Of a DNA stretch of 64,000 nt, positions 1,202-31,107 are shown one piece after another. The notes beneath the pieces are model-generated. The model was not told where the DNA came from. It did no database searches and saw nothing but the letters and a program-made list of their open reading frames with translations. A program made the position numbers and the translations under genes. This stretch comes from Primulina eburnea (Eukaryota; Streptophyta; Magnoliopsida; Lamiales; Gesneriaceae), in assembly GCF_022965805.1 (NCBI RefSeq), contig NC_133110.1:30190668-30254667 (forward strand). The letters are read 5' to 3'. Position 1 is the first letter of the stretch. Every line of letters begins with the position of its first letter.

Positions 1202-1589
1202 ACACTCTCTGCCCACTTTCTCAAATTTCACATGTACTCTTATTTTCGTGTCCCGATTAATCCTTTCATAATCTTATCAAATTTATAAATCAATAATTAC
1301 AGATTACCAGGATTAAATTTCCGGGCATTACATGCTTCAAACATTGCGGATTTGTTCTTTAGAGAAGTCATTAGGTTGCATGGCATGCCTAGGACTATTG
1401 TTTCTGGTCGCGGTATTAAATTCTTAAGTTACTTTTGGAAGACTTTATGGGCTAAACTTGGCACAAAATTGTTATTTTCTACTACTTGTCATCCTCAAAC
1501 GGATGGACAAACTGAAGTTGTCAATAGAACTTTGGGAACACTTTTGCGTGCTATTCTTAAAAATAATTTGGATTGACATTTCTATAGAC

Positions 1590-4139
1590 TTTATTTTGGG
1601 GTTGCCTAGGACTAAGAAGGGGAGGGATTCTATTTTTGTTGTTGTGGATAGATTCTCTAAGATGGCACATTTTATAGCTTGTCATAAAACCGATGATGCT
1701 TCAAACATTGCGGATTGGTTCTTTAGAGAAGTCGTTAGGTTGAATGGCATGACTAGGACTATTGCTTCTGATCGCGATGTTAAATTCTTGAGTTACTTTT
1801 GGAATACTTTATGGGCTAAACTTGACACAAAATTGTTGTTTTCTACTACTTGTCATCCTCAAACGGAAGGACAAACTGAAGTTGTCAATAGAACTTTGGA
1901 AACACTTTTGCGTGCTATACTTAAAAAGAACTTGGATCGACATTTCTATGGACTTTATTTGGGGGTTTCCTAGGACTAAGAAGGGGAGGGATTCTATTTT
2001 TGTTGTTGTGGATAGATTCTCTAGGATGGCACATTTTATAGCTTGTCATAAAACTGACGATGCTTCAAACATGGCGGATTTGTTCTTTAGATAAGTCGTT
2101 AGGTTGCATGGCATGCCTAGGACTATTGTTTCTGGTCGCGATGTTAAATTCTTGAGTTACTTTTGGGGTAGACTTTATGGTCTAAACTTGGCACAAATTG
2201 TTGTTTTCTACTACTTGTCATCCTCAAACGGATGGACTAACTGAAGTTGTCAATAGAACTTTGGGAACACTTTTGCGTGCTATTCTTAAAAAGAACTTGG
2301 ATTGACATTTCTATGGACTTTATTTTGGGGTTGCCTAAGACTAAGAAGGGGAGGGATTCTATTTTTGTTGTTGTGGATAGATTCTCTAAGATGGCACATT
2401 TTATAGCTTGTCATAAAACCGATGATGCTTCAAACATTGCGGATTTGTTCTTTAGAGAAGTTGTTAGGTTGCATGGAATACCTAGGACTATTGTTTCTGG
2501 TCGCGATGTTAAATTTTTGAGTTACTTTTGGTAGACTTTATGGGCTAAACTTGGCACAAAATTGTTGTTTTCTACTACTTGTCATCCTCAAACGGAAAAA
2601 CAAACTGAAGTTCTCAATTGATCTTTGGGAACACTTTTGCGTGCTATTCTTAAAAAGAATTTGGATTGACATTTCTATGGACTTTATTTTGGGGTTTTCT
2701 AGGACTAAGAAGGGGAGGGATTCTATTTTTGTTGTTGTGGATAGATTTTCTAAGATGGCACATTTTATAGCTTGTCATAAAAAGGATGATGCTTCAAACA
2801 TTGCGGATCTGTTCTATGGATAAGTCGTTAGGTTGCATGGCATGCCTAGGACTATTGTTTCTGGTCGCGATGTTAAATTCTTGAGTTACTTTTGGGGTAG
2901 ACTTTATGGGCTAAACATGGCACAAAATTGTTGTTTTCTACTACTTGTCATCTTCAAACGGATGGACAAACTGAAGTTGTCAATAGAACTTTGGGAACAC
3001 TTTTGCGTGCTATTCTTAAAAAACTTGGATTGACATTTCTATGGAATTTATTTTGGGGTTGCCTAGGACTAAGAAGGGGAGGGATTCTATTTTTCTTGTT
3101 GTGGATAGATTCTCTAAGATGGCACATTTTATAGCTTGTCATAAAGCCGATGATGCTTCAAACATTGCGGATTTGTTCTTTAGAGAAGTCGTTAGGTTGC
3201 ATGGCATGCCTAGGACTATTGTTTCTGGTCGCGATGTTAAATTCTTGAGTTACTTTTGGGGTAGACTTTATGGTCTAAACTTGGAACAAATCGTTGTTTT
3301 CTACTACTTGTCATCCTCAAACGGATGGACTAACTGAAGTTGTCAATAGAACTTTGGGAACACTTTTGCGTGCTATTCTTAAAAAGAACTTGGATTGACA
3401 TTTCTATGTACTTTATTTTGGGGTTGCCTAGGACTAAGAAGGGGAGGGATTCTATTTTTGTTGTTGTGGATAGATTCTCTAAGATGGCACATTTTATAGC
3501 TTGTTATAAAACCGATTATGCTTCAAACATTGCGGATTTGTTCTTTAGAGAAGTTGTTAGGTTGCATGGCATACCTAGGACTATTGTTTCTGGTCGCGAT
3601 GTTAAATTTTTGAGTTACTTTTGGTAGACTTTATGGGCTAAACTTGGCACAAAATTGTTGTTTTCTACTACTTGTCATCCTCAAACGGAAGAACAATCTG
3701 AAGTTCTCAATGGATCTTTGGGAACACTTTTGCGTGCTTTTCTTAAAAAGAATTTGGATTGACATTTCTATGGACTTTATTTTGGGGTTGCCTAGGACTA
3801 AGAAGGGGAGGGATTGTATTTTTGTTGTTCTGGATAGATTTTCTAAGATGGCACATTTTATAGCTTGTCATAAAAAGGATGATGCTTCAAACATTGCGGA
3901 TCTGTTCTTTGGATAAGTCGTTAGGTTGCATGGCATGCCTAGGACTATTGTTTCTGGTCGCGATGTTAAATTCTTGAGTTACTTTTGGGGTAGACTTTAT
4001 GGGCTAAACTTGGCACAAAATTGTTGTTTTCTACTACTTGTCATCTTCAAACGGATGGACAAACTGAAGTTGTCAATAGAACTTTGGGAACACTTTTGCG
4101 TGCTATTCTTAAAAAACTTGGATTGACATTTCTATGGAA
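1590..4139 (+). repeat. Higher-order repeat unit, copy 1 (2,550 bp, seven monomers)
   Basis: Monomer variants recur in the same order exactly 2,550 bp further on; for example the variant with [16 protein letters not shown] at ~1712 returns at ~4262. Copy 1 and copy 2 differ at only a few sites seen by eye (such as 1938, 2597-2600 and 2631), whereas neighbouring monomers differ more. Inside the unit three monomers are themselves repeated with a 1,093-bp shift (2247 to 3340, 2551 to 3644, 2833 to 3926). Unit boundaries are arbitrary because the array is continuous. Confidence 0.88.
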
Positions 4140-6689
4140 TTTATTTTGGGGTTGCCTAGGACTAAGAAGGGGAGGGATTCTATTTTTGTTGTTGTGGATA
4201 GATTCTCTAAGATGGCACATTTTATAGCTTGTCATAAAACCGATGATGCTTCAAACATTGCGGATTGGTTCTTTAGAGAAGTCGTTAGGTTGAATGGCAT
4301 GACTAGGACTATTGCTTCTGATCGCGATGTTAAATTCTTGAGTTACTTTTGGAATACTTTATGGGCTAAACTTGACACAAAATTGTTGTTTTCTACTACT
4401 TGTCATCCTCAAACGGAAGGACAAACTGAAGTTGTCAATAGAACTTTGGAAACACTTTTGCGTGCTATACTTAAAAAGAACTTGGATTGACATTTCTATG
4501 GACTTTATTTGGGGGTTTCCTAGGACTAAGAAGGGGAGGGATTCTATTTTTGTTGTTGTGGATAGATTCTCTAGGATGGCACATTTTATAGCTTGTCATA
4601 AAACTGACGATGCTTCAAACATGGCGGATTTGTTCTTTAGATAAGTCGTTAGGTTGCATGGCATGCCTAGGACTATTGTTTCTGGTCGCGATGTTAAATT
4701 CTTGAGTTACTTTTGGGGTAGACTTTATGGTCTAAACTTGGCACAAATTGTTGTTTTCTACTACTTGTCATCCTCAAACGGATGGACTAACTGAAGTTGT
4801 CAATAGAACTTTGGGAACACTTTTGCGTGCTATTCTTAAAAAGAACTTGGATTGACATTTCTATGGACTTTATTTTGGGGTTGCCTAAGACTAAGAAGGG
4901 GAGGGATTCTATTTTTGTTGTTGTGGATAGATTCTCTAAGATGGCACATTTTATAGCTTGTCATAAAACCGATGATGCTTCAAACATTGCGGATTTGTTC
5001 TTTAGAGAAGTTGTTAGGTTGCATGGAATACCTAGGACTATTGTTTCTGGTCGCGATGTTAAATTTTTGAGTTACTTTTGGTAGACTTTATGGGCTAAAC
5101 TTGGCACAAAATTGTTGTTTTCTACTACTTGTCATCCTCAAACGGAAGAACAAACTGAAGTTCTCAATGGATCTTTGGGAACACTTTTGCGTGCTATTCT
5201 TAAAAAGAATTTGGATTGACATTTCTATGGACTTTATTTTGGGGTTTTCTAGGACTAAGAAGGGGAGGGATTCTATTTTTGTTGTTGTGGATAGATTTTC
5301 TAAGATGGCACATTTTATAGCTTGTCATAAAAAGGATGATGCTTCAAACATTGCGGATCTGTTCTATGGATAAGTCGTTAGGTTGCATGGCATGCCTAGG
5401 ACTATTGTTTCTGGTCGCGATGTTAAATTCTTGAGTTACTTTTGGGGTAGACTTTATGGGCTAAACATGGCACAAAATTGTTGTTTTCTACTACTTGTCA
5501 TCTTCAAACGGATGGACAAACTGAAGTTGTCAATAGAACTTTGGGAACACTTTTGCGTGCTATTCTTAAAAAACTTGGATTGACATTTCTATGGAATTTA
5601 TTTTGGGGTTGCCTAGGACTAAGAAGGGGAGGGATTCTATTTTTCTTGTTGTGGATAGATTCTCTAAGATGGCACATTTTATAGCTTGTCATAAAGCCGA
5701 TGATGCTTCAAACATTGCGGATTTGTTCTTTAGAGAAGTCGTTAGGTTGCATGGCATGCCTAGGACTATTGTTTCTGGTCGCGATGTTAAATTCTTGAGT
5801 TACTTTTGGGGTAGACTTTATGGTCTAAACTTGGAACAAATCGTTGTTTTCTACTACTTGTCATCCTCAAACGGATGGACTAACTGAAGTTGTCAATAGA
5901 ACTTTGGGAACACTTTTGCGTGCTATTCTTAAAAAGAACTTGGATTGACATTTCTATGTACTTTATTTTGGGGTTGCCTAGGACTAAGAAGGGGAGGGAT
6001 TCTATTTTTGTTGTTGTGGATAGATTCTCTAAGATGGCACATTTTATAGCTTGTTATAAAACCGATTATGCTTCAAACATTGCGGATTTGTTCTTTAGAG
6101 AAGTTGTTAGGTTGCATGGCATACCTAGGACTATTGTTTCTGGTCGCGATGTTAAATTTTTGAGTTACTTTTGGTAGACTTTATGGGCTAAACTTGGCAC
6201 AAAATTGTTGTTTTCTACTACTTGTCATCCTCAAACGGAAGAACAATCTGAAGTTCTCAATGGATCTTTGGGAACACTTTTGCGTGCTTTTCTTAAAAAG
6301 AATTTGGATTGACATTTCTATGGACTTTATTTTGGGGTTGCCTAGGACTAAGAAGGGGAGGGATTGTATTTTTGTTGTTCTGGATAGATTTTCTAAGATG
6401 GCACATTTTATAGCTTGTCATAAAAAGGATGATGCTTCAAACATTGCGGATCTGTTCTTTGGATAAGTCGTTAGGTTGCATGGCATGCCTAGGACTATTG
6501 TTTCTGGTCGCGATGTTAAATTCTTGAGTTACTTTTGGGGTAGACTTTATGGGCTAAACTTGGCACAAAATTGTTGTTTTCTACTACTTGTCATCTTCAA
6601 ACGGATGGACAAACTGAAGTTGTCAATAGAACTTTGGGAACACTTTTGCGTGCTATTCTTAAAAAACTTGGATTGACATTTCTATGGAA
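4140..6689 (+). repeat. Higher-order repeat unit, copy 2
   Basis: Second copy of the seven-monomer unit, in register with copy 1 at +2,550 bp throughout. A third repeat begins at 6690 and matches the start of the unit until ~6815. There it switches to a different monomer type carrying [19 protein letters not shown], and it is cut by RE2 at 7132. Confidence 0.88.
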
Positions 6690-7127
6690 TTTATTTTGGG
6701 GTTGCCTAGGACTAAGAAGGGGAGGGATTCTATTTTTGTTGTTGTGGATAGATTCTCTAAGATGGCACATTTTATAGCTTGTCATAAAACCGATGATGCT
6801 TCAAACATTGCGGATTTGTTCTTTAGAGAAGTCGCTAGGTTTCATGGCATGCCTAGGACTATTGTTTCTGGTCGCGATGTTAAATTCTTTAGTTACTTTT
6901 GGAATACTTTATGGTCTAAACTTGGCACAAAATTGTTGGTTTCTACTACTTGTCATCCTCAATCGGATGGACAAACTGAATTTGTCAACAGAACTTTGGG
7001 AACAATTTTGCGTGCTATTCTTAAAAAGAACTTGGATTGACATTTCTATGACTTTATTTTGGGGTTGCCTAGGACTAAGAAGGGGATGGATTCTATTTTT
7101 GTTGTTGTGGATAGATTCTCTAAGATG

Positions 7128-7132
7128 GCACA
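7128..7132. repeat. Target-site duplication of RE2, left copy (GCACA)
   Basis: GCACA precedes the LTR end at 7133, and the same five bases follow the other LTR end at 29403-29407. Removing one copy and everything between restores the continuous satellite phrase around GATGGCACATTTTATAGC. This shows that the two satellite blocks were once adjacent. Confidence 0.95.
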
Positions 7133-7457
7133 TGTGGGGACCCGGACGCTGATCTTTCTTCTTAATCATCTTTGGGATTTAATTATCAATTAAGATAAAA
7201 CAGGGTCTAAAAATTTTTCTTTTAAAATATAAGTGCGGAAGGTAATGGCATCTAAATAATATACATATCTGTATAAAATACATTCCAGTATTAAAATTTC
7301 TACAATCTAATCTAAGGTTCAACTACTAAAATTCAAGTAATAAAACCAAGTCTACTGTAAGTCCGGAATCACCACGCTAAACTCGTCTTCTCTCATCGTC
7401 ATCTTGACCCCGATCCTTCCCCACTTGTTGTCATGCACACATACAAAACAAGACAAC
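7133..7457 (-). repeat. Truncated 3' LTR of RE2
   Basis: Matches the first ~325 bp of the LTR at 10605 and then jumps from ...AGCCGGA directly to the internal CTCCCCCTCTTAGATCTGAG. In RE10 that internal sequence lies immediately inside the LTR, at 54479 onward. The remaining ~1.75 kb of this LTR, including U3 and promoter, is deleted. Confidence 0.85.
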
Positions 7458-10003
7458 AGCCGGAGTTTTCTCCCCCTCTTAGATCTGAGTTCGTCCTCGA
7501 ACTCACAAGCAATCAATCCAAATTTATCAGAAGAAATATATAACAGAGTTTAACATCCAAACTCATCTCACTAACATCATTCTGTGGTGTCTTTCTTTGG
7601 TCAATCTCTGATTCTAATCTGAATTCAAAATTTAAGAATTATAATATCATAATCCTTTTTCAACTTGTTCTAGCCGAATCAATCCCGCATTACTGGCTAT
7701 ACAACATCCGTATATGCCAATCTGCAGTTTATAACCAAACAATCCCACCTGTAGTTGTTATCCCATCGGTTTATCCCAATCTAGGACATAATCAATCTTC
7801 ATCTTCCAATACCAATCGTCATCATCCGACATTGGTTTATTAAATCTGTCCATTCTGAATTATCTCAATAACTATTGTCATACAGTAAGTCACACAATGA
7901 CAATAATCTATATAAACTAGTACCAATATCCGGTACTAATGCTTCTACAAATATCTGTCAATATCTGGTAATACACTCTGACTACCTGTCAGTCTGTAAT
8001 AATTTGTACAAGAGAGTTTATGATATAATCTATCACAAGTACAACTCCATCAAAATCACCACCTAATATCATCTAATTCATCATTCTAGCCAATCTGACT
8101 ATTTCTTTGACAGCGATCTCCGTCATCTGATTTTGTTTGTACGTAATCTGGTACAAACTGATAGATATAGATTGAGTACTCTGTCAATCATAATCATATC
8201 ATATCAAAATCTAAAAAAAATGGCGGTATTGTCATTACGAAAGCCATAGAAATGTACTCCCATTTCTATTCAGAAATATACAAATTCTGTAATACTCTTC
8301 TGATTTCTATCTTTTTGGCTTCTTCTGTTAGCAATTCAGACTTATCAGTACCATGTCTGCCAACATTTCTGTACAAATTCTGTTATAACCGATCTAATCT
8401 GTTTATATCATACCTGTCTGTTCAAATATCATACATTCACAATCACCTGAATGAAAACTGAATCCATTACTGTGCATTTCTGACACTATCTGTGCTTTCA
8501 GATTCAAACTATTCTATATAAACAATTCAGTTAATAACATAAAATAAAGAAGAAATACCTACCTGACATTCGGCTCTGACTATAGATATCAAATTCTGTT
8601 ATACAATTCTGAAACATTCTGATATCACAAGATAATCAATCTGATAAAAACACAAATCACCTATCGGTTGCTCTGATCGAAACTCTGTCCTGATTATCGA
8701 AATACAATTCTGAGCATTCTGATCACATTTCTGAACTGTTGCAACTCTCAACTGTTTACAATATGCTGTATCAAACATACATGTAAACCACAGTAATATC
8801 AATCAGATTCGAAATACAAACAACCTATACAGATCTAGTGAGTTTAAGAAACTCATAAAACAGCAATTTCTGGCAATACTGATAATTCTGACTACTGATC
8901 AATCTTCACAGTGCCCAAATCATCTGCCATATCTCATCTGCAAATAGAATATGCTCCCAAAAAATATAAGATGTCTCAAATACTAATTTAGATCAATCCC
9001 AATACGCAAGTAGATATAACATAATAAGGGAATAAGAGAATAAGAAACTCTGTAAAACTCAGCAATTCTGACTTCCTGACATTTCTGCTAATTCTGATAT
9101 ATCTGTTACCTGTGTCTTTTACAGTCGCTGATTTCCGTCTCAACTGTGCAAATAAATCGGTATACAAACTGCAGATATCACATATTCTGAATACAATCTA
9201 TTTCAATTATGATTCATACCTGACTAATTTCTGTATACAATAATCATAGTTCTCTAAATATTCAATAAAATCTTCAAATATTCCATTTAATCAATCAGAT
9301 GCTGTTAATATATCAAATATCATAGATATAACATGCATAAAATCATCAGAATATCCCTGAATCTAAGAGTTAGCAATCTGTACCCTTCTATTAATCTTCA
9401 ATATCATTCTGTACTGAATTCTAGTCTATAACCATTACCTGGTATTGATTCAATTCTGAAATCTACTTTTCTGATATCCAACACATCTGAAATTTTATCT
9501 AGGCAAACACCAGTCAACTAATACATTACGGGCAAATCTGTCACCGTTAGACTCGATTTCAGTAAATCTACCAAACACATAAGGATACCATCTGTTCCTT
9601 TCTGTGATAATCGAGTCATAACAGTACAATGATCTAAGGAATTCTGGATCTAGAATCCTCATTTCTCAACTAGATCTGATCTTAATCCTACCATTTCTGG
9701 AACACATTCCACAATATTTCTGTACTTGTTTAGCATTACATGTCAATAATGAAATCGAAATCATATAACACAAGTACATCATAATCTAACCCAATCTCGG
9801 GTTCATTTCACTGTAGTATATAATATGTCACATAAATCTCTTATATCAACATATTCCTCAACAACCAAGGAATCAATACTACAGTATACACAGACCCCAC
9901 AAACATAGCATATCACCATGCTACTCAATCACAGATACTCATGAAGAATGCATTAGTACATATCAATACGTATGCAATATAATCATAAAAGAGTAGTACC
10001 TGT
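7458..10003 (-). other. Pol-less internal region of RE2
   Basis: About 2.5 kb with no credible coding frame. It starts at the polypurine tract side (CTCCCCCTCT, reversed) and runs to the gag remnant. Composition is odd: the plus strand is rich in short ATTCTG, TTCTGA and CAATCTG motifs every 10-30 bases and poor in CpG. The same sequence fills RE10 at 54475-56960, so it is a heritable part of the family and not random decay. In an autonomous gypsy element pol would lie here. No similarity to protease, RT or integrase is visible. Its origin is unknown. Confidence 0.75.
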
Positions 10004-10053
10004 TGAAAATTCTGGGTCTGTTCTTCTGTCATTACCACCAATGACTTTGCTCT

Positions 10054-11294: not shown

Positions 11295-11517
11295 CTAGAC
11301 TTCGGCCTGATCTGTATCCACATCTACAATAGGAGAGTGAATCTTCCCCTAAGCTGTGATATCACCGAACGTCTAGAAGTCTCGCTGATCTGTCAAGACT
11401 TTCCTATCTTAAATGCAATGAATATAAATCTATGAACAAAGCATTAACATATCAGCATATAAACAAAGCATATGCATATCAGAATATACAATAATCTAGT
11501 ATGTGATTTTGTTGGGA

Positions 11518-11543: not shown

Positions 11544-12000
11544 ATGTCTTCCCGTATATCACATGAATTATACCTTTGTCGTCCCCGTCTGATGAAGACG
11601 ATGACCTGTACTCAAATCTGTCCATCTCGAATCTGAAATGACAATATCGAATACGCTGTATCAGTGAATAACTCAATATACAATCTGTTTTGATCAATAC
11701 TCAATTCAGTATACAATCTGATCAATGTCTGAATAAGATACAATCTGATCCACATCAATAATATCACAATCTAATCGACATCATATCTGAATCTGATCAA
11801 TCTAACTCAACTGATGTTTCGACGACATAACAATACAATCTGAATAACCCCGTCAATCTGAACATCACAAATATCATACTGAACTCATAATCTGTGCCCA
11901 CATAATTCACACTCTGAATATTAACACAATTCTGATATAGAATCTGTAGTATCCCGATGCCTAATTTGAGTTAATTATTGGATTAATTATATTTCGTTGA

Positions 12001-12260
12001 GATCGGAAGGACCGAACCGAGTTCGGATCGTCTGAAGAGGGTTCGGATCGTCCGATCAGGGTTCGGATCGTCCGGAGACAGGTGGCTGGACACGTGGAAG
12101 ACATGCAGAGTTCGGATCGTCCGATCAGGGTTCGGATCGTCCGAAGACAGGTGTCTGGACACGTGGAAGACATGCAGGGTTCGGATCGTCCGATAAGGGT
12201 TCGGAAGGTCCGAAGTGTACAGTGGATCGGATCGTCCGAAGTGGATCGGATCGTCCGATC
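12001..12260. repeat. U3 array of TCGGATCGTCCGA in RE3 5' LTR
   Basis: Nine clear copies, plus a diverged first one (TCGGAAGGACCGA), of a 13-base unit whose arms TCGGA/TCCGA are inverted around TCG. Two longer sub-blocks containing CTGGACACGTGGAAGACATG are also duplicated. The array ends seven bases before the TATA box. A binding-site array or methylation target is plausible; the identity of any factor is unknown. The 3' LTR copy is at 17899-18158 and has one copy altered to TCGGATCGACCGA. Confidence 0.9.
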
Positions 12261-12266
12261 GTTGTC

Positions 12267-12275
12267 TATAAATAG
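12267..12275 (+). promoter_or_regulatory. TATA box of RE3 5' LTR
   Basis: TATAAATAG, a textbook plant TATA box, directly downstream of the U3 repeat array. The 3' LTR has the same element at 18165-18173. Confidence 0.8.
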
Positions 12276-12674
12276 AGGCGCGAGGCTTCATTTGTTACTC
12301 GCCAATTCCGAGTGTTCCAGAGCGTTTTAGTCGTTTCTGATGGGTTTCTAGTCTTTTCCCGAGGTTTAGGCACTAGCGGGGAGCTACTGGTTTTGTAGCG
12401 GAGCTGTGCTCTAGTTGGGAGCTAGCGACATCAGTGGGCTGACTACGGACGCAGACTTGATTCTAGGACTGATTGCTAGGATCTACTGGTTTGAGGTACG
12501 AAAGTACTATCCGAGATAGCAGGATTGAGTATGCTTTACTATGTGTTGCATGTTTATATGTTGCATTATTATCTGACATATGATGCATTGTTTATTATGC
12601 GGCATTTGCATAATCATGTTGAGCCTGACTATTTTTGAGATAGCCTGTTGAGAGGGTGCTCAGCCCTCGTTTGT

Positions 12675-12729
12675 TGTGGATGGTTGGACCCCGTTGGCCG
12701 ACGGTGGTCAGGTCACCGGTATATCCACA
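12675..12729. other. Stem-loop in the transcribed part of the RE3 LTR
   Basis: TGTGGAT (12675-12681) pairs with ATCCACA (12723-12729). Inside, GACCCCGT (12687-12694) pairs with ACGG-T-GGTC (12701-12709) with one bulged T. In the 3' LTR one C of CCGT is T, leaving a G-T pair, so the stem survives. Confidence 0.55.
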
Positions 12730-13192
12730 GGTTTATTTTGGTATGGGAGCCACCTCCTGGTGCGACGGCGCAGAGTGCTACATACCTTGACGTCATTTAC
12801 CTGAGCAGTATTTCGATATACCCAGATCCTGGTATCCAGTACATTTTGCATACATGCATGTCATAGTCTTGTATACTCATGCTTTCGGTGCTGAGCGTTT
12901 TATGCTCACGTCCTCGGTTTATCTCTGTTTTGGACACCCTATTCGATGGGGCAGGTCTCAGGTTGGACGGACCAGGAGGGAGTGGACAGGGAGCTGGCAG
13001 AGGTTGACCTGTAGTTGTTGGTATTTGTTCTTGGTATTTAGTTCGATCTGGTTGTTTAAGTATTTTGTACTTACAGATTCGATTGGGTTGTATTACTGTT
13101 TTTCCGCTGTTTACCTGATTCAGTTTTAAATGTTAATTTTGCATGCTTAAGTTCTGATTAGTAGGTGATTCTGGAACGGGTCACTACATTTA

Positions 13193-13204: not shown

Positions 13205-13274
13205 ATGCATTAAGATTTTGGGATTTAGAACTGTTCTTTTGGGTTTAATCTTTGGTAACTTTTGTTGCTAAGAG

Positions 13275-17842: not shown

Positions 17843-19086
17843 TGTAGTATCCCGATGCCTAATTTGAGTTAATTATTGGATTAATTATATTTCGTTGAGA
17901 TCGGAAGGACCGAACCGAGTTCGGATCGTCTGAAGAGGGTTCGGATCGTCCGATCAGGGTTCGGATCGTCCGGAGACAGGTGGCTGGACACGTGGAAGAC
18001 ATGCAGAGTTCGGATCGTCCGATCAGGGTTCGGATCGTCCGAAGACAGGTGTCTGGACACGTGGAAGACATGCAGGGTTCGGATCGTCCGATAAGGGTTC
18101 GGAAGGTCCGAAGTGTACAGTGGATCGGATCGACCGAAGTGGATCGGATCGTCCGATCGTTGTCTATAAATAGAGGCGCGAGGCTTCATTTGTTACTCGC
18201 CAATTCCGAGTGTTCCAGAGCGTTTTAGTCGTTTCTGATGGGTTTCTAGTCTTTTCCCGAGGTTTAGGCACTAGCGGGGAGCTACTGGTTTTGTAGCGGA
18301 GCTGTGCTCTAGTTGGGAGCTAGCGACATCAGTGGGCTGACTACGGACGCAGACTTGATTCTAGGACTGATTGCTAGGATCTACTGGTTTGAGGTACGAA
18401 AGTACTATCCGAGATAGCAGGATTGAGTATGCTTTACTATGTGTTGCATGTTTATATGTTGCATTATTATCTGTCATATGATGCATGGTTTATTATGCGG
18501 CATTTGCATAATCATGTTGAGCCTGACTATTTTTGAGATAGCCTGTTGAGAGGGTGCTCAGCCCTCGTTTGTTGTGGATGGTTGGACCCTGTTGGCCGAC
18601 GGTGGTCAGGTCACCGGTATATCCACAGGTTTATTTTGGTATGGGAGCCACCTCCTGGTGCGACGGCGCAGAGTGCTACATACCTTGATGTCATTTACCT
18701 GAGCAGTATTTCGATATACCTAGATCCTGGTATCCAGTACATTTTGCATACATGCATGTCATAGTCTTGTATACTCATGCTTTCGGTGCTGAGCGTTTTA
18801 TGCTCACGTCCTCGGTTTATCTCTGTTTTGGACACACTATTCGATGGGGCAGGTCTCAGGTTGGACGGTCCAGGAGGGAGTGGACAGGGAGCTGGCAGAG
18901 GTTGACCTGTAGTTGTTGGTATTTGTTCTTGGTATTTAGTTCGATCTGGTTGTTTAAGTATTTTGTACTTACAGATTCGATTGGGTTGTATTACTGTTTT
19001 TCCGCTGTTTACCTGATTCAGTTTTAAATGTTAATTTTGCATGCTTAAGTTCTGATTAGTAGGTGATTCTGGAACGGGTCACTTTA
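17843..19086 (+). repeat. 3' LTR of RE3
   Basis: Same length as the 5' LTR (1,244 bp) and aligned at a constant +5,898. Differences by eye include 18132, 18474, 18487, 18590, 18689, 18720, 18835 and 18869, plus the two near the end (19084-19085). The terminal dinucleotide is TA where CA is expected. Confidence 0.93.
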
Positions 19087-19395
19087 GAATCTCAGTCAAT
19101 AACTTTCAAAAATCATAACAATTACAGAAACGGTATGTTCTTTAATCTGACTTCAATCCTATAATGTCTACGGTAGCAGAAACACCATATCTGAATCATA
19201 TTCAAATCTGACAATATCATAAATTCAAATCTTGTCTAAACGTAACAAAACTTACGTCCAGTTGTGGCCTGCGTTGATAGGAACACAGTACCGAAGTCGG
19301 ATTCAAAATCAGATAGACGGTTCGCTCATAAATCGATTTCGAAATGGCCGAACAAAGCTTTCCCTAACCTTTTCGATTTTCTTCTGCCAAAATCT

Positions 19396-21560
19396 TGTTA
19401 GAGTAGGTGCCCGTCGAGCCAATTGTTGGCCGAGTGTTCACAATGAAACTCTATGTATAAGCAGTCTTTATTTTAATAATATTTGAAATTATTATTTTGG
19501 CACATTTTTATCTGTATACCCATGCTAGTTGCATAGATAAAGCCCTTGAATATACAAATAGTAGAAAGAATATGAGATGCTCATATGATGAGTATCATGA
19601 AACTCATATTTGTAATACTGTATATTCTAAACGGTTCCTAGTCGATTCAGCCGCCACTAAGAAGGATATAGGCCGCTCGAGTTAGAGACTAGTATCTGCG
19701 ATGTGAGTACCATGTTTCATTGGTAGGGGACATTGTGATGTCCGAGCATGCAGATAGGTGCTCCTGGTAGAGTGCACTGAACAACCCTCCATAAAAGGAC
19801 TTTCCAAGTGGTTCTCACTTATCGAGTGGAAAAGTCCTGGTTTATGGTTGTACACCATTAGTCCTTATGACCCGGGACAACATTGAGACTCTATGTGCTA
19901 GCGTTTCACTTTGACTTGTTTACCGACTCTTATGGGGTCATCAGGTGGCAAGGTTGGGTGATCTGTCGAAACATATAGGAGTCGATGCATTGTAGTCGGG
20001 GATTCACCGCTTACCTTCGGGTATGGATATCCTATGTGTTATCATGTGTATGTAGGTTGAAATCTCTGGCCAGAGTATGGTGGTAATTATGAAAGGGGTT
20101 TCATAGATTACACCATCGATGCAACTACGACATGACACATAGTATCGATTCATTGACAACTCTCGATAAACCAATGGTTGTCGAATCGATCGGGATATAC
20201 GAGTTGAAGGGACCGTACTGTACGCTAACCATAATAGAATGGTTCTTGCAGGCACTATCATTTGATACCTAGGGAATCATGTAAGCGATGCTGCTAGGCG
20301 TTTAACATGATTGGTTGGGTACTATCAGACTTGAGTTCTGACGTTCTTATTATCAAGGTGTTGATAAATAAGAATGGAGCAATTGGGGTATGCTCATATA
20401 AGGACATGTTTAGTCCGAATCACATGGAGATGTGAACCCACGGCTAGTTGTATCAATGAACCATTGAGGGCCACACAAGTACTAGCTTTCTAGATCCCGT
20501 TGAGAAGTAAAAATAGTTCAATGTGTTGAACGGCTTATAAAGGAGTTTATAAGCGTAAGGAAAATTAGAAGTATGACTTCTATAAAGGAGAAAATAGTTC
20601 AATGTGTTGAACGACTTATAAATGAGTTTATAAGTGTAAAGAAAAATAGAAGTATGACTTCTATGAGAGAAATGTAAATTTTAATTTATGGAAGTGTTCC
20701 TAAATTAAAATTTGGCCAAGTGAATAATGTATTTTGAAAATTGTGATTTTCATAAACATTATTATGGACTAAATTAAATTAATTCAAGTGTTGAATTAAT
20801 TAAACACTAGTGGACCTAGTAGAGTCCAAAATAATTAAATTAATTCAAGTGTTGAATTAATTAAATTATATTGAGTCTTGTAGAGCTCAATTTAAATTAA
20901 TTATTTAACTAGTGGGACTTGGGTAAATTCAAGTAATGTTTAATTAGTCTCAAATATGTTTGAGATAATTAAATTTAATCCATGGTTTTTAATGTGTTAA
21001 AAACCATATAATATGCATGCATGGGAGGTGAAAGATTGGGAGACTACTTTTTGAGTTTTCAAGGCATGGCATGCAACTTTTTGGAACACCTTTTCCCACA
21101 ACCAAGGCTAGTCTTCCTTCCCTCCTCCCACACTCCCTCTTGGCCGAAATCTTCAACACAATTCTCTCCTTTTTCTTCATTTTTGTGTTCTTCAATTTTT
21201 GGAGAAAAACACTCACTTCTCAAAGAAAAATGCTAAACATTTTCTAGTGCAAGTGTAAGGTGGATCTACCTAGTTGGTGGTGGGCCTAATTTGAAGGAAA
21301 GATTCAAGGTAGGAGGAAGCTTGTAGATTTTTTCATGCCATACAAGAGCTAAGGTGTTTACACTTTAGTTGGAGCCATCATCAATCAATCTTTGAGATTG
21401 ATAGGTACATTTCTTAACACACTATGAATGTCATTTTGTGTTTATTGTATTTGCTACACATTATATGAGAGGTGGCCGAAATTTTCTTGCTAGAAAATAT
21501 GATTTTCGAAATTTTGTTGCTTCCGTTGCGCTTCCGGTCACCGTAACCGATCCCCTTTCA
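19396..21560 (+). repeat. 5' LTR of RE4
   Basis: Starts TGTTAGAGTAGG and ends GATCCCCTTTCA. It contains a 62-codon open frame (19497-19685) that stays open in every copia LTR copy of this window. It also contains two direct repeats around AAAATAGTTCAATGTGTTGAACG (20511 and 20591), several TTAATTCAAGTGTTGAATTAATT inverted repeats (~20775-20870), and an AT-rich second half. The promoter is not obvious. Confidence 0.94.
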
Positions 21561-21562
21561 AG

Positions 21563-21574
21563 TGGTATCAGAGC
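21563..21574 (+). other. Primer binding site of RE4 (tRNA-iMet type)
   Basis: TGGTATCAGAGC, two bases after the 5' LTR end. Confidence 0.92.
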
Positions 21575-23373
21575 TATGGTTACGTTTTTGTGTAGCAAAT
21601 ACAAGATATTATGTTGAGATTGATTTCTAACCGCTTGAGATATTTTTTGAATCAAAAATCAAGGCCATCTTGGAGCAAAATTTCGGCAGCAACATGCTGC
21701 CCATTTCGGGCACCTCGGGTTGCCCGAGGGGCTGCCCGAAACGGGCAGCAAGGGCTGCCCGAGGGGCTGTCCGAAATGCCCTATCAAAATAAAAAAAAAA
21801 AAAAATTTTGTTCGCCGGAATCCGGCGACGGAGCGCCGGCGACGGCGACGGCGATGACGACTAGGGTTTTCAAAATGTGTTTTGAAATATCAAAGTGTCA
21901 TGGGCCTTGAGTTATTGGGCCATTGGATGGCCAACACATTTGTGATTTTAAATGGGTCAAAATATTTTTGGTGAAAAATAAGTTTTTGGGCCCTTAAGTT
22001 TAAAATTACAAAAGTTGCAAATTTCTCTCATAAAATAAATAATTGAAGTTTGACTTTAATTATTTATAGTAAATTGTGATTTATAAGAAATTCGGTTATA
22101 AATAAATTAATTGGAAAGTAGACAAAGGTGTTTGTATACTTTGTTAATTTAGTTTATAATCGTGGCGGTTAGTTATTAGATCAAGATATATAATATTGGA
22201 TCAATTAATTATTGTGATAATTAATTGATGGTGTATGATATGTGATATTATGCATGAAGGATGATCAAAAGCCCAAGCACAATTTGCTAGGTGTATGCTA
22301 GGATATTTGATATTGAATGATTGTAATAATTATCAAATTTAAAGTGGGCTTGGTTTATGGCCCGTTCCCACCCCATGAGATGTATCACTATTTGCCATGG
22401 ATATTTATTTGTAAATATTAGTATAGTGGATGATCAAGATTGGAAGATGGTGGCCATGATGATTATGAAGATCGAAGACATGTAAATATTGGAAGCTAAT
22501 GTAATAGTTGCATTTGCATCCCGTGCATTTACCCTAGGATTGGACCTAGGCCCGTGTTTAGCTCACACGGGCCATTAGTATTGGGGCGATTGATCATCCT
22601 TGTTTTGTTTACTGTTTATAATATATGCATGATATGTTATAAATAATGAGTATGTGCGTTATTATTATGATAATAACAAAGTTGCATGAATCCGGCAAAC
22701 ATACGATCAAACATGGCGAGCTTTTAAAATAAAATTAATGATGAGACCTTTCAAAATTAAAAACCCTCATTTTGAATAAGATTCAAAATTAATATCAAGC
22801 CCGAAAAGGGGAATTATAAATTTGTTTATAATTTCCTTGTCTTCCATCGACAATGGGTGCATGATGAACGCTACCAGTACTCGGGGCTCGGCTCATATTA
22901 TTGGGGGAGCTTTGGGTGCCGGAAAGCTGTGACATCCATTGACATGGTGATGTGAACTACGTGGAACTCCCATGATTTCGGCTCATATTATTGAGGGAAC
23001 TCATGGCGACCGTCCATTAAGGTTCAACATCGATGGGTAAGGCTTGACACGTGAAGATGAACGACGTCATATTATTGGGTCCTAATCAAACGTGAGACAA
23101 AAGTTTACGTAGAGGGTTGCATTGTGATGCAATTGGAAACTACCTTTTAGGAATTGTGATTGGCTGATATTATTCGGGATCATAATTCGCTAATTGGACC
23201 TTACGTACCTACTGAGGAAAGGAGTTTCCCGTTTTCACTAGAGGGTAGTGAAAGATGTCAAAACAGTGGGAGCAAATATTTATGAAGTAAAAGTCCAAAC
23301 TTCATATCTTACTAAATATTTTAAAATAGTCATCAACATTTATCTGTTTTACTTTTCAGTACAAGTTTTGACA
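21575..23373 (+). other. Long untranslated leader of RE4 with GC-rich hairpin
   Basis: 1.8 kb between PBS and gag, with no credible gene. A strong hairpin occupies 21695-21750: TGCTGCCC and TTTCGGGCA, then CCTCGGG, loop TTG, pairing back to ...GGGCAGCA with one mismatch and a 3-base bulge. A poly-A run (21788-21804) and the palindrome CGCCGGAATCCGGCG (21814-21828) follow. Near gag the motif CATATTATT(G)GG recurs at 22894, 22984, 23068 and, diverged, 23165. The right-hand part is also present, reversed, at 62812-64000. A packaging or dimerisation role is possible but inferred. Confidence 0.7.
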
Positions 23374-24291
23374 ATGTCTTCGATTCGCAATCCGATATCC
23401 GTAATACTCGACAAACACATATTAACTGGACCTAATTACCTCACTTGGCTAAGAAACCTGAAAATCGTCTTGAATTCGGAAAATGTAGCATATACACTGA
23501 CTGAGTCGCCCCCTGTTGAGGCTCCGACTGACTGCAATCCTGAGGAATTGCAGGCTTACAAGGAATGGTGTGACCATGACTTGATAGCCAGGTGTTATAT
23601 GCTGACTTCTATGAATGATGAGCTACAGAGGCGTTTTGAGGGTGCAAAGAGTGCTGCTGACATTCATTTGCACCTCAAGGAGCTCTTTGGAGAGCAAACT
23701 CGTCCTCTTAGGCATGCTACCGTCAAGGAGCTGATCACTTTACACATGCGAGATGGGGCCTCGGTCCATGAGCATGGCCTAAAGATGATCGGGCTCGTGG
23801 ACAAGCTCGTTGTCCATGAGCATGGCCTAAAGATGATCGGGCTCGTGGACAAGCTCGTTGGCATGGATCTGATCTTGCCTTCGGAGTTGACCACCGACGT
23901 GTTGCTCTTATCGCTGCCTAGCTCATTTGATCCTTTTGTGGTGAACTTCAACATGAACAAGCTAGAACCGACCCTTGAGGAGTTGGTGAATATGCTTGTT
24001 ACGTTTGAATCAACCATCAAGAAAGAGAAGTTGGTTCTTTATGTGGGTTCTTCATCTGGTACGAAGATTGATCCACATGGGAATGAAAAGAAGAGTTCTT
24101 TCCAACGTCCCAAGAAGAACGTGCCCTTGTTGAGGCAATCTCCGATTCCCGTTGAGGCAGCCAGACCAGTTAAGGCTGACAAGACTGATGATGTATGTCA
24201 TCACTGCAAGAAGCCTGGACATTGGAGGCGTAATTGCAAAGAATATCTTGCCCAGAAAAGTTCTGGAAATGGTATGTTCTACATTAAATAA
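23374..24291 (+). CDS. gag: copia Gag of RE4, 305 residues
   Basis: The start at 23374 is chosen because it matches the start of the RE8 copy (MSxIRNPIS). Upstream codons in frame belong to the leader. Gag polypeptide of the copia type: LDKHILTGPNYLTWLRNLK near the start, FEGAKSAADIHLHLKELFGE in the middle, a basic linker, and one zinc knuckle CHHCKKPGHWRRNC (CX2CX4HX4C) near residue ~275. The frame is open throughout and ends shortly after the knuckle. A perfect 48-bp direct repeat (23764-23811, 23812-23859) duplicates 16 residues, VHEHGLKMIGLVDKLV, which the RE8 copy has once. Confidence 0.9.
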   Translation: MSSIRNPISVILDKHILTGPNYLTWLRNLKIVLNSENVAYTLTESPPVEAPTDCNPEELQAYKEWCDHDLIARCYMLTSMNDELQRRFEGAKSAADIHLHLKELFGEQTRPLRHATVKELITLHMRDGASVHEHGLKMIGLVDKLVVHEHGLKMIGLVDKLVGMDLILPSELTTDVLLLSLPSSFDPFVVNFNMNKLEPTLEELVNMLVTFESTIKKEKLVLYVGSSSGTKIDPHGNEKKSSFQRPKKNVPLLRQSPIPVEAARPVKADKTDDVCHHCKKPGHWRRNCKEYLAQKSSGNGMFYIK

Positions 24292-26650
24292 ACATTTCAA
24301 TTAACTCTACTTCTTGGGTATTGGATACCAAAGGTTGATCACATCTCTGTAATGTGTTGCAGGTGATGGGAAGAAGTAAGAGGATTAGAGAAGGTGAGAC
24401 CTTCTTGGGGATGGGATATGGAGCAAGAGTTGCTGCCAAGACCTTAAAAAATGTTTACTTATTGTTGAACAATGACTTTAAGTTAATTTTAAGAGATGTT
24501 TTGTTTGTACCTGTTTGGTGTAAAACATTGTTTCCATTTCTATTATAATAAAAATGGATATTCTTGTTTATTTAGCAAAGGTGTTTGCAACATTTACAAT
24601 AATGAATGTTTAATTGGTACTTGAGAACTTGAAAACGATCTCTATAACTTAAAATTAAAAGATATTCCATTAAATGTCCATTCAAAGGCATACACCATAT
24701 GAGATATGGATGGGTAAGCCTTCTAAGTATTCTTATCTTAGAATATGGGGTGCCCTGCTTATGAAGCAGGTAGTGGGTGATAAATTGGATAGTCGATCCA
24801 TTTTATGTTACTTTGTGGGATATCCAATGAATTCGGTTGGATACTACTTCTATCATCCTCAAGAAACAAAGGTGTTTGTTTCTAGGAATGCAACCTTTTT
24901 GGAAAAGGAATTTCTATTGGATAGAAAATGGGAGATGATAGAACTCGAAGAGGTTCGAGAGACACCCACAATTATAGAACCCACACCCGAAGAGCCAAGT
25001 GAGGAGATACAAGCTCCTAAAAGATCCGAGAAAGTCTCGAGACCACCTATGATGTATGGTCAGCTTCTTGAAGAGGGCCATGATGAGCCTAACCATGGAT
25101 GTGATCCGTGGACCTTCAAGGAAGCGTTATCTGATGTCGATTCATCCAAATGACTTGAAGCTATGGAATCTGAGATGAATTCCATGCAGTCGAACCAAGT
25201 GTGGGATCTTATAGATCCACCTGAGGGAACGGTTCCCATAGGGACTTGGGCGGATGGGAAGGTATTGACCTTCAAGGCGCGATTGGTGGCAAAAGGATAT
25301 ACTCAAAGAAATGGAGTTGACTTTGAGGAAACCTTTTCACCAGTTGCAATGTTCAAGTGCATAAGGATTTTGCTAGCCATAGCTGCATGGTATGACTATG
25401 AGATATGGCAGATGGATGTCAAGACAGCCTTTCTTAATAGGGATATTAAGGAAGAGATTTACATGTCTCAAACCTGGAGGGTTTACATCTATCGGAAGTG
25501 AGCATATGGTATGCAAACTTCAAAGATCTATTTATGGTCTAAAGCAGGCATCTAGGAGTTGGAAACTCAGATTCGATAGTACAAACAAAGAGTTGATTTA
25601 CTAAGAATCCTAAGGAACCCTGTGTATAAGAAGGTCAGTGGGAGTGTTGTGACATTCCTGGTGCTTTATGTTGATGACATTCTACTCATTGGGAATGATG
25701 TAGGAATGTTGCAATCAACTAAGATATGGTTAGCGAGTAAGTTCTCGATGCAGGACTTGGGTGAAGCATCTTTTGTATTGTGATACAGATCTTTAGAGAT
25801 AGATCGAGAAGATTGCTTGGTCTCACCCATTCCACATACATTGATACCATCGTGAAGCGGTTCTCGATGGATAAGTCCAAGAGAGGACATCTACCAATGT
25901 GTCATGGCGTGTCCCTATCCAAGTCTGTCTTTCAAGACAGATGCAGAGATAGCGGCGATGACAAAGCATTCCTTATGCATCTGCGATTGGTAGCATCATG
26001 TATGGGATGATATCTACACGTCCTGATGTGGCTTTCGCACTAAGTGTAGTGAGTAGATATCAATCGAACCCTGGTCTTCCACACTGGAAAGTTGTGAAAG
26101 ACATCCTCAAGTATTTGAGAAGGACCAATAAATTGTTCTTGGTCTATGGGGTGGAGAACTGAAATTGGAAGGCTATACCGACTCTAGCTTCCAAAGCGAT
26201 TTCGATGACTCGCAGTCAACCTCTAGGTTTGTATTCATGCTCAATGGTGCTGTTGTCTCTTGGAAGAGTTCCAAGCAAGACAATACTGCGGATTCCAGCA
26301 CAGAGGCCGAATACATTGTTGCATCAGATGCAACAAGGGAGGCTGTTTGGATAAGGAATTTCGTCTAAGAGTTGGACGTCATTCCTAATGGAGTTGCTCC
26401 TATCCCGGTGTTGTGTGACAACACGGGAGCTTTAGCTCAAGCAAAGGAGCCAAGGTCTCATCAGAAGTCCAAACAAGTATTGAGAAAGTACCACATCCTC
26501 GTAGAGATTGTGGAAAGTGGAAGAAGTGTCTATTGACAAAGTCGGCTCCGCAGATTATGTTGTTGATCCACTAATTAGGCCTTTACCTGGACCATTATTC
26601 GACAAGCATCGCGAATCAATGGGTTTTAAGCATATGGGTAGTTGGATCTA
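24292..26650 (+). pseudogene. Broken copia pol of RE4
   Basis: Pieces in order: a pre-integrase stretch (24354-24548; GARVAAKTLKNVYLLLNN), then a jump at ~24600-24680 straight to the integrase C-terminal side (24674-25153; TPYEIWMGK, SILCYFVGYP). RT follows in pieces (25163-25501; [36 protein letters not shown]), with a frameshift near 25470 after YMSQ. The second RT part has YVDD at 25667-25678, a stop at 25780 and further breaks. RNase H is 26165-26368 and 26396-26650 (SWKSSKQ, STEAEY, DNTGA). The protease and the DDE integrase core are missing. A segment of RT near 25245 is also deleted, as in RE8 but not RE5. Confidence 0.88.
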
Positions 26651-26654
26651 ATGC

Positions 26655-26665
26655 AAGTGGGAGAT
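26655..26665 (+). other. Polypurine tract of RE4
   Basis: AAGTGGGAGAT directly precedes the 3' LTR at 26666. Related tracts precede the other copia LTRs (39788-39799; reversed at 33121 and 51601). Confidence 0.8.
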
Positions 26666-28830
26666 TGTTAGAGTAGGTGCCCGTCGAGCCAATTGTTGGC
26701 CGAGTGTTCACAATGAAACTCTATGTATAAGCAGTCTTTATTTTAATAATATTTGAAATTATTATTTTGGCACATCTTTATCTGTATACCCATGCTAGTT
26801 GCATAGATAAAGCCCTTGAATATACAAATAGTAGAAAGAATATGAGATGCTCATATGATGAGTATCATGAAACTCATATTTGTAATACTGTATATTCTAA
26901 ACGGTTCCTAGTCGATTCAGCCGCCACTAAGAAGGATATAGGCCGCTCAAGTTAGAGACTAGTATCTGCGATGTGAGTACCATGTTTCATTGGTAGGGGA
27001 CATTGTGATGTCCGAGCATGCAGATAGGTGCTCCTGGTAGAGTGCACTGAACAACCCTCCATAAAAGGACTTTCCAAGTGGTTCTCACTTATCGAGTGGA
27101 AAAGTCCTGGTTTATGGTTGTACACCATTAGTCCTTATGACCCGGGACAACATTGAGACTCTATGTGCTAGCGTTTCACTTTGACTTGTTTACCGACTCT
27201 TATGGGGTCATCAGGTGGCAAGGTTGGGTGATCTGTCGAAACATATAGGAGTCGATGCATTGTAGTCGGGGATTCACCGCTTACCTTCGGGTATGGATAT
27301 CCTATGTGTTATCATGTGTATGTAGGTTGAAATATCTGGCCAGAGTATGGTGGTAATTATGAAAGGGGTTTCATATATTACACCATCGATGCAACTACGA
27401 CATGACACATAGTATCGATTCATTGACAACTCTCGATAAACCAATGGTTGTCGAATCGATCGGGATATACGAGTTGAAGGGACCGTACTGTACGCTAACC
27501 ATAATAGAATGGTTCTTGCAGGCACTATCATTTGATACCTAGGGAATCATGTAAGCGATGCTGCTAGGCGTTTAACATGATTGGTTGGGTACTATCAGAC
27601 TTGAGTTCTGACGTTCTTATTATCAAGGTATTGATAAATAAGAATGGAGCAATTGGGGTATGCTCATATAAGGACATGTTTAGTCCGAATCACATGGAGA
27701 TGTGAACCCACGGCTAGTTGTATCAATGAACCATTGAGGGCCACACAAGTACTAGCTTTCTAGATCCCGTTGAGAAGTAAAAATAGTTCAATGTGTTGAA
27801 CGGCTTATAAAGGAGTTTATAAGCGTAAGGAAAATTAGAAGTATGACTTCTATAAAGGAGAAAATAGTTCAATGTGTTGAACGACTTATAAATGAGTTTA
27901 TAAGTGTAAAGAAAAATAGAAGTATGACTTCTATGAGAGAAATGTAAATTTTAATTTATGGAAGTGTTCCTAAATTAAAATTTGGCCAAGTGAATAATGT
28001 ATTTTGAAAATTGTGATTTTCATAAACATTATTATGGACTAAATTAAATTAATTCAAGTGTTGAATTAATTAAACACTAGTGGACCTAGTAGAGTCCAAA
28101 ATAATTAAATTAATTCAAGTGTTGAATTAATTAAATTATATTGAGTCTTGTAGAGCTCAATTTAAATTAATTATTTAACTAGTGGGACTTGGGTAAATTC
28201 AAGTAATGTTTAATTAGTCTCAAATATGTTTGAGATAATTAAATTTAGTCCATGGTTTTTAATGTGTTAAAAACCATATAATATGCATGCATGGGAGGTG
28301 AAAGGTTGGGAGACTACTTTTTGAGTTTTCAAGGCATGGCATGCAACTTTTTGGAACACCTTTTCCCACAACCAAGGCTAGTCTTCCTTCCCTCCTCCCA
28401 CACTCCCTCTTGGCCGAAATCTTCAACACAATTCTCTCCTTTTTCTTCATTTTTGTGTTCTTCAATTGTTGGAGAAAAACACTCACTTCTCAAAGAAAAA
28501 TGCCATACATTTTCTAGTGCAAGTGTAAGGTGGATCTACCTAGTTGGTGGTGCGCCTAATTTGAAGGAAAGATTCAAGGTAGGAGGAAGCTTGTAGATTT
28601 CTTCATGCCATACAAGAGCTAAGGTGTTTACACCTTAGTTGGAGCCATCATCAATCAATCTTTGAGATTGATAGGTACATTTCTTAACACACTATGAATG
28701 TCATTTTGTGTTTATTGTATTTGCTACACATTATATGAGAGGTGGCCGAAATTTTCTTGCTAGAAAATATGATTTTCGAAATTTTGTTGCTTCCGTTGCG
28801 CTTCCGGTCACCGTAACCGATCCCCTTTCA
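26666..28830 (+). repeat. 3' LTR of RE4
   Basis: 2,165 bp, aligned with the 5' LTR at +7,270 without indels. About 13 substitutions by eye. It ends CCCCTTTCA and is followed by the AATCT duplication, after which the RE2 LTR resumes. Confidence 0.94.
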
Positions 28831-28850
28831 AATCTGAAGGTTTGCATGTG

Positions 28851-28868
28851 TATATATATATATATATA
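28851..28868 (-). promoter_or_regulatory. TATA run of the RE2 5' LTR
   Basis: Alternating TA stretch, on the minus strand directly downstream of the GCGCATATGCGC array. Length differs from the equivalent runs in RE10 (about 6 and 28 TA units). Confidence 0.5.
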
Positions 28869-28919
28869 CATCCACGACATGCAAGAGAGCAAGTGGCATC
28901 GTGCATGTTCAGCACGTTT

Positions 28920-29232
28920 CGCGCATATGCGCCAATAATGTCGCGCATATGCGTCGGTAGCTCACACCAGCATTTTGCCAACTCGCGCATATGCGCCATT
29001 TATGTCGCGCATATGCGCCAATCATTCTGCCTAACCCGCGCATATGCGCCATTTAGGTCGCGCATATGCGCCAATCCTTCTTGACCTTCCGCGCATATGC
29101 GCCACTAATCTCACGCATATGCGCCAAGGCTTCTGGAGGTGTCGCGCATATGCGCGCATGTCTTCGCGCATGTGCGCCAACCTTACTGTGATTCTCGCGC
29201 ATGTGCGCCAATCTTGATCGCGCATGTGCGCC
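28920..29232. repeat. GCGCATATGCGC array in U3 of RE2
   Basis: Twelve copies of the palindrome or one-base variants (CATATGCGTC, CACGCATATGCGCC, GCGCATGTGCGC), spaced about 20-45 bases apart, with unrelated spacers. Three of the four rightmost copies carry the CATGTG variant, which breaks the palindrome. Short open frames reading RICA, AHMR and RAYA arise from the repeat and are not genes. Confidence 0.9.
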
Positions 29233-29407
29233 AACACATAAATTTGCACACATAATTTACACCTTTCTTATGTGTTCTAGTCCAATTCGTTTCGTCTATA
29301 ATTATCTCAATTACTTCAATAATCATTCCAGATTAATTATCAATTACGGTAATCATACCCAATTCATTTCAGATTACGGTAATTAAATTCTCGGGCATTA
29401 CAGCACA

Positions 29408-31107
29408 TTTTATAGCTTGTCATAAAACCGATGATGCTTCAAACATTGCGGATTTGTTCTTTAGATAAGTCGTTATGTTGCATGGCATGCCTAGGACTAT
29501 TGTTTCTGGTCGCGATGTTAAATTCTTGAGTTACTTTTGGTAGACTTTATGGGCTAAACTTGGCACAAAATTGTTGTTTTCTACAGGAACACCTTTGCGT
29601 GCTATTCTTAAAAAGAACTTGGATTGACATTTCTATGGATTTTATTTTTGGGTTTCCTAGGACTAAGAAGGGGAGGGATTCTATTTTTGTTTTTGTGGAT
29701 AGATTCTCTAAGATGGCACATTTTATAGCTTGTCATAAAACCGAAGATGCTTCAAACATTGCGGATTTGTTCTTTAGATAAGTCGTTAGGTTGCATGGCA
29801 TGCCTACGACTATTGTTTCTGGTCGCGATGTTAAATTGTTGAGTTACTTTTTGGGTAGACTTTATGGGCTAAACTTGGCACAAAATTGTTGTTTTCTACT
29901 GCTTGTCATCCTTAAACGGATGGACAAACTAAAGTTGTCAATAGAACTTTGGGAACACTTTTGTGTGCTATTCTTAAAAAGGACTTTGATTGACATTTCT
30001 ACGGACTTTATTTTGGGTTGCCTAGGACTAAGAAGGGTAGGAATTCTATTTTTGTTGTTGTGGATAGATTCTCTAAGATGGCACATTTTATAGCTTGTCA
30101 TAAAACCGATGATGCTTCAAACATTGCGGATTTGTTCTTTAGATAAGTCGTTAGGTTGCATGGCATGCCTACGACTATTGTTTCTGGTCGCGATGTTAAA
30201 TTGTTGAGTTACTTTTTGGGTAGACTTTATGGGCTAAACTTGGCACAAAATTGTTGTTTTCTACTACTTGTCATCCTCAAAAGGATGGACAAACTGAAGT
30301 TGTCAATAGAACTTTGGGAACACTTTTGCGTGCTATTCTTAAAAAGGACTTTGATTGACATTTCTACGGACTTTATTTTGGGTTGCCTAGGACTAAGATG
30401 AGTAGGAATTCTATTTTTGTTGTCGTGGATAGATTCTCTAAGATGGCACATTTTATAGCTTGTCATAAAACCGATGATGCTTCAAACATTGCGGATTTGT
30501 TCTTTAGATAAATCGTTAGGTTGCATGGCATGCCTACGACTATTGTTTCTGGTCGCGATGTTAAATTGTTGAGTTACTTTTTGGGTAGACTTTATGGGCT
30601 AAACTTGGCACAGAATTGTTGTTTTCTACTACTTGTCATCCTCAAACGGATGGACAAACTGAAGTTGTCAATAAAACTTTGGGAACACTTTTGCGTGCTA
30701 TTCTTAAAAAGAACTTGGATTGACATTTCTATGGACTTTATTTTGGGGTTGCCTAGGACTAAGACGGGGAGGGATTCTATTTTTGTTGTTGTGGATAGAT
30801 TCTCTAAGATGGCACATTTTATAGCTTGTCATAAAACCGATGATGCTTCAAACATTGCGGATTGGTTCTTTAGAGAAGTCGTTAGGTTGAATGGCATGAC
30901 TAGGACTATTGCTTCTGATCGCGATGTTAAATTCTTGTGTTACTTTTTGAATACTTTATGGGCTAAACTTAGCACAAAATTGTTGTTTTCTACTACTTGT
31001 CATCCTCAAACGGATGGACAAACTGAACGTGTTATTCTTAAAAAGAACTAGGATTGACATTTCTATGGTCTTTATTTTGGGTTGCCTAGGACTAAGAAGG
31101 GGAGGGA
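29408..31107 (+). repeat. Integrase-derived satellite array, block 2
   Basis: Continuation of the array after RE2: about 4.7 monomers. Three successive near-identical 365-bp monomers begin at equivalent points 29791, 30156 and 30521. The first monomer has lost ~50 bp at 29585 (TTCTACAGGAACACC). The last is internally shortened at ~31028 (AACTGAACGTG). The block ends at 31107, where the RE5 LTR begins. Here too no monomer encodes a complete integrase. Confidence 0.9.

Follow-up and report, generated by a model that had tools for sequence, protein, structure and literature searches.

The 64,000-bp stretch of DNA analysed here (the window) contains one visible array of tandem repeats, which is at least 7.5 kb long, has both of its ends hidden and is present as two blocks on either side of an LTR retroelement (Table 1). 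Together, the blocks (1333-7132 and 29408-31107) total 7,500 bp, or about 20.6 monomer lengths at 364-366 bp per monomer, and we divided them into 21 monomers or part-monomers, 16 in the left block (A monomers) and five in the right block (B monomers). TRF reported a period of 364 bp for the left block, with 15.9 copies at 1332-7133 (93% matches, score 10202), and a period of 365 bp for the right block, with 4.0 copies at 29586-31027 (95% matches). The monomers are similar to each other, are ordered head to tail and keep one orientation throughout, i.e. they have the tandem arrangement of satellite DNA. Pairwise identity has a mean of 94.3% and a range of 90.9-98.9% among 14 of the 21 monomers, the seven duplicate copies A09-A15 having been dropped. 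A preliminary description of this DNA had proposed about 20 tandem monomers of ~364-365 bp, which is borne out by TRF, by self-comparison and by the monomer table. It had also given 1333-31107 as the span of the array. Both outer coordinates proved exact, bases 1332 and 31108 being the terminal bases of LTRs, but most of the span between them (7133-29402) is an LTR retroelement with further elements nested in it, and this part of the claim does not stand.

Table 1. Features of the integrase-derived array, its neighbouring elements and the subrepeats found in the window.
Feature	Position	Strand	Description	Basis
Array, left block	1333-7132	+	15 complete monomers (364-365 bp) plus the greater part of a 16th	TRF, self-comparison, monomer table, boundary reading
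Array, right block	29408-31107	+	Remainder of the split monomer, a monomer lacking ~52 bp internally, three full monomers (365-366 bp), last with a ~30-bp internal deletion	
Seven-monomer duplication, copy 1	1590-4266	+	Includes the 127-bp overlap; 3 mismatches in 2,677 bp against 4140-6816	
Seven-monomer duplication, copy 2	4140-6816	+	3 mismatches in 2,677 bp against 1590-4266	
Three-monomer block A03-A05	2060-3152	+	Duplicated as A06-A08 (3153-4245); older 1,093-bp period	
Left target-site duplication	7128-7132	.	GCACA	
Right target-site duplication	29403-29407	.	GCACA	
LTR retroelement inside the array	7133-29402	-	Inserted into one monomer; nested elements within	
LTR terminus, left bound	1296-1332	-	Belongs to another, diverged element whose LTR family is that of the 7133-29402 element	
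LTR terminus, right bound	31108-31928	-	Family also at 19395-28831; 83% over 853 aligned bases	
~53-bp subrepeats	28971-29234, 41938-42080, 48702-48906, 54162-54307, 60054-60199	both		TRF

As judged from protein matches, the monomer is a piece of the catalytic core of a Ty3/gypsy integrase. The frame at 6663-7037, which is open in the window as it stands, aligns with Ty3 Gag-Pol (PDB 7q5b) over residues 3-124 of its 125 (E-value 1.3e-31), and the 122 aligned residues correspond to region 1169-1290 of Gag-Pol, for which the structure is solved. The match spans essentially the whole 364 bp of the monomer, and the unit is homologous to part of a retrotransposon, as is the case for retrotransposon-derived tandem repeats. 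With Pfam rve, the 181-aa frame at 1428-1973 gave an E-value of 1.6e-06 and 28.7 bits, a score under the curated cut-off of 32.6. A gypsy integrase core had already been named as the monomer source in the preliminary description, and the Ty3 Gag-Pol match supports that assignment, together with the sub-cut-off match to rve. The parent element was not found in the window: the two gypsy integrases encoded there are only 47% and 45% identical to the monomer peptide (118 aa), and are therefore not the parent. Collections of viral and prokaryote contigs, in which plant elements would not be expected, yielded no confirmed relative of the monomer.

When all shifts from 20 to 2900 were scanned within 1333-7132, the best was 2550 (94.6% ungapped identity) and the second best was 1093 (82.2%), while base-shuffled controls at shift 2550 gave a maximum of 29.3% (n=200). 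The 2,550-bp period and the 1,093-bp period nested within it, both proposed earlier, thus hold ranks 1 and 2. Monomers A02-A08 are 99.5-100% identical to A09-A15, monomer by monomer. Inside the seven-monomer unit the three-monomer unit occurs twice, with identities of 97.8% for A03/A06, 97.5% for A04/A07 and 98.9% for A05/A08. The B monomers of the right block lie outside both block duplications; B02, B03 and B04 are mutual nearest relatives (96.4-97.8%), a kinship that looks like a sign of single-monomer expansion. The two periods are nested segmental duplications, and not a repeatedly used higher-order unit. Indeed, a multi-monomer unit present many times over, as in a higher-order repeat array, was not found in the window; further copies may lie beyond it. 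The term higher-order repeats used in the preliminary description was therefore an overstatement, given that the 2,550-bp, seven-monomer block is present only about 2.05 times and that the three-monomer block reflects one older duplication. Its proposal that the last visible expansion was recent and involved a whole multimer agrees with the near-identity of the two seven-monomer copies.

The left and right blocks are one array. Two independent arrays are ruled out, because a single element with the target-site duplication GCACA lies between the blocks. After position 29407 the monomer phase resumes in register with the left block, and mean identity is 94.6% within the left block (36 pairs), 94.1% between the blocks (45 pairs) and 94.5% within the right block (10 pairs), again with A09-A15 dropped. 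This splitting of the array by a retroelement with a GCACA duplication had been missed in the first reading. The minus orientation of the 7133-29402 element was judged from its polypurine tract and from a related element at 52396-60367. Its 3' LTR is cut to 332 bp (7133-7464) and directly joined to the polypurine tract, and the primer-binding site present in the 52396-60367 relative is missing; the LTR remnants differ at 3 in 332 positions. At the left edge of the array, the LTR terminus is 81% identical to the LTR end of the family over 37 bp, with ~81% identity over about 160 bp at 665-824, and its partner lies beyond the window. At the right edge, the last monomer is cut off by the adjoining LTR element. 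For the candidate target duplication AGGGA (31103-31107), 21 more AGGGA sites were found rightward, none of them, by eye, beside the expected LTR terminus. Since both outer edges of the array are LTR termini, neither of its true ends is in the window, and its full length may exceed what is visible.

We consider it likely, with a probability of roughly 0.8, that a 364-bp piece of a gypsy integrase core gave rise to a non-coding tandem array through unequal exchange, and that LTR elements inserted later. The monomers look non-coding. As 364 equals 3 x 121 + 1, the reading frame shifts at every monomer join. Among 20 frames started at the conserved start of the core, two were set aside because they run into an element junction, and stops were present in 15 of the 18 testable frames. 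Substitutions, counted as extra alleles in the 14 distinct monomers, are distributed 40:31:31 over ancestral codon positions 1, 2 and 3 (chi-square P 0.48). At the codon that we take, from the D, D, E triad motif, to be that of the second catalytic Asp, 3 of the 21 monomers have GAT and the other 18 have GGT; Ty3 Gag-Pol carries Asp at the aligned position. An open frame combined with the D, D, E triad, as in a coding integrase core domain, was thus not found. The three monomer frames that are still open through the core count against the non-coding part of this explanation, and an open frame of 181 aa (1428-1973), together with two that reach 125 aa, would also be in line with a host gene that encodes tandem integrase-core domains under selection. 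Such a gene is exceedingly improbable in view of the frame shift at each join, the stops, the absence of codon-position bias and the replaced catalytic Asp, and we reject it.

An LTR end abuts either side of the left block, as would be seen if the array were the internal region of an LTR element with its LTRs at termini 1332 and 7133. This reading is very improbable, and we rejected it as well: there is no primer-binding site or polypurine tract at the array ends, whereas both are present in the 52396-60367 relative, the left LTR pieces match the family at only about 81%, and GCACA stands on both sides of 7133-29402 with the monomer then continuing in phase. It is possible, if rather unlikely, that the array is instead an internal expansion in one retroelement copy and no satellite in its own right, i.e. 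that the integrase region was stretched and the rest of the element lies past the hidden ends. Consistent with this, both visible ends are due to later LTR insertions, so that the original flanks are unseen, the monomers all have one orientation and are collinear with integrase, and, in the sections on Ogre elements in PMC7004042, tandem arrays inside an element are known from 3' untranslated regions. However, the array does not code and records two or more block duplications, which is more than a simple internal stutter, and no parent RT, gag or LTR was recognised beside the array in the window, although other elements occupy the flanks. We also considered that copy number, chiefly that of the 2,550-bp duplication, was created or changed by the assembler, given that assemblers err where copies differ at merely 3 of 2,677 positions. 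We regard an artefact of this kind as improbable, because the seven-monomer copies do differ, at three sites, the 14 distinct monomers are 1-9% apart and are not collapsed copies, and the inserted element and its target duplication sit in a distinct monomer, A16, which is 94.9% identical to A15.

Under the favoured reading of an integrase piece amplified into a non-coding array, a 364-bp catalytic-core piece of a Ty3/gypsy integrase would have been joined head to tail, with replication slippage, microhomology-mediated joining or reinsertion of an extrachromosomal circle as candidates for the first join. Growth may then have proceeded by unequal exchange between in-register monomers, involving single monomers, then the three-monomer block and lastly the seven-monomer block, and LTR retrotransposons would have inserted afterwards, including the 7133-29402 element that splits the visible array. 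We infer that unequal crossing-over was the agent of enlargement, and the nested duplications of unlike size count toward unequal exchange. A 127-bp tract that holds the ends of the seven-monomer duplication is identical at 1590-1716, 4140-4266 and 6690-6816, at spacings of 2,550 bp. This tract, which was noticed after the fact, fits unequal crossing-over between in-register monomers and is suggestive only; gene conversion could leave the same mark. Over 91 monomer pairs, the longest perfect in-register run has a median of 50 and reaches at least 127 in two pairs, both of them duplication relatives; the comparison is slightly unequal, as the 127-bp tract extends across a monomer join. At 1.3e-8 substitutions per site per year, a rate from grasses that may not be that of the host, the inserted element would be roughly 0.35 My old (a very uncertain figure, from 3 differences in 332) and the seven-monomer duplication roughly 0.04 My old (3 in 2,677). 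The monomers are ~5.7% divergent on average (14 of 21 monomers, A09-A15 dropped), and amplification should therefore be older than both the inserted element and the seven-monomer duplication, unless conversion has reset parts of the array. The window thereby gives a readable order of events, from monomer amplification over block duplication to retroelement invasion.

We read the array as a retrotransposon-derived tandem array, and thus as a known kind of sequence with an unusual source segment. The preliminary description called it a satellite, a label that normally implies abundant, long arrays at several loci, whereas a single array of at least 7.5 kb is what the window shows. For a centromeric repeat of wheat and Aegilops, the source part is reportedly gag coding sequence, which would make it a coding-derived precedent, from gag and not from integrase. 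The title of the paper on that repeat gives a tandem family from part of a Ty3/gypsy element (Cheng and Murata, 2003). In the available parts of the respective publications, maize CRM1TR and CRM4TR derive from LTR plus untranslated region (PMC3648361), and Lathyrus FabTR satellites derive from tandem repeats in the Ogre 3' UTR (PMC7004042). CRM1TR and CRM4TR resemble the array studied here in being Ty3/gypsy-derived tandem repeats with LTR-retrotransposon interruptions and local homogenisation, but differ from it in the origin of their monomers and in having two or more mapped loci and identified parent elements (PMC3648361). The FabTR satellites are likewise retrotransposon-derived, and block multimers (HORs) are reported in some of their arrays; they began, however, from short tandem repeats already located downstream of the coding region (PMC7004042), whereas the integrase-core array has a pol coding source with no known prior tandem repeat. 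Two further retrotransposon-related repeats are hop SaazCEN, which is embedded in an LTR (PMC12371157), and potato St3-294, which reportedly matches a complete retrotransposon (as cited in PMC7644871), and neither is described in the corresponding parts of those papers as integrase core alone. In the portions of the open-licence literature that were searched, we found no description of a satellite built from an integrase core.

As far as these excerpts go, most of the retrotransposon-derived satellites that we compared trace to LTRs, to untranslated regions or to the element's own prior tandem repeats. An integrase-coding source supports the view that a satellite can be born without a special seed sequence, from nothing more than a chance tandem join and subsequent unequal exchange. 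Tentatively, and with less than even odds, the array may belong to a satellite family derived solely from the catalytic core of gypsy integrase, i.e. without LTR, UTR or prior tandem repeat, which would occur at many loci and perhaps at centromeres; the 364-bp unit is about two nucleosomes long and might be favoured by chromatin packing. If such a family were real, a satellite could be seeded by any coding segment from within a retrotransposon.

Lastly, the window, which looks plant-like from its types of LTR elements, contains several other elements. Two are nested in 7133-29402. One is a Ty3/gypsy element with LTRs at 11945-13185 and 17843-19083 and a candidate target duplication GAATC; its gag-pol forms a single uninterrupted frame of 1,476 aa (13272-17702), and it is young by its LTRs (8 differences in 1,241). 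The other is a copia-type element of ~9.4 kb at about 19395-28831, with LTRs that differ at 13 of 2,166 positions and AATCT on both sides, in which the only frame of at least 180 aa is gag-like (349 aa). A second gypsy element outside this region (43902-48467) has a chromodomain match, LTRs that differ at 15 of 1,940 positions and a gag-pol divided by a stop codon into two frames that follow one another (43902-47123 and 47124-48467). The region 31108-41731 is a mosaic of fragments of the copia-type LTR family of 19395-28831, in both orientations and 76-98% alike. The ~53-bp subrepeats are arranged around the palindrome GCGCATATGCGC within the LTRs of gypsy elements, and at 59883-59939 the dinucleotide TA is repeated 28.5 times without a mismatch.
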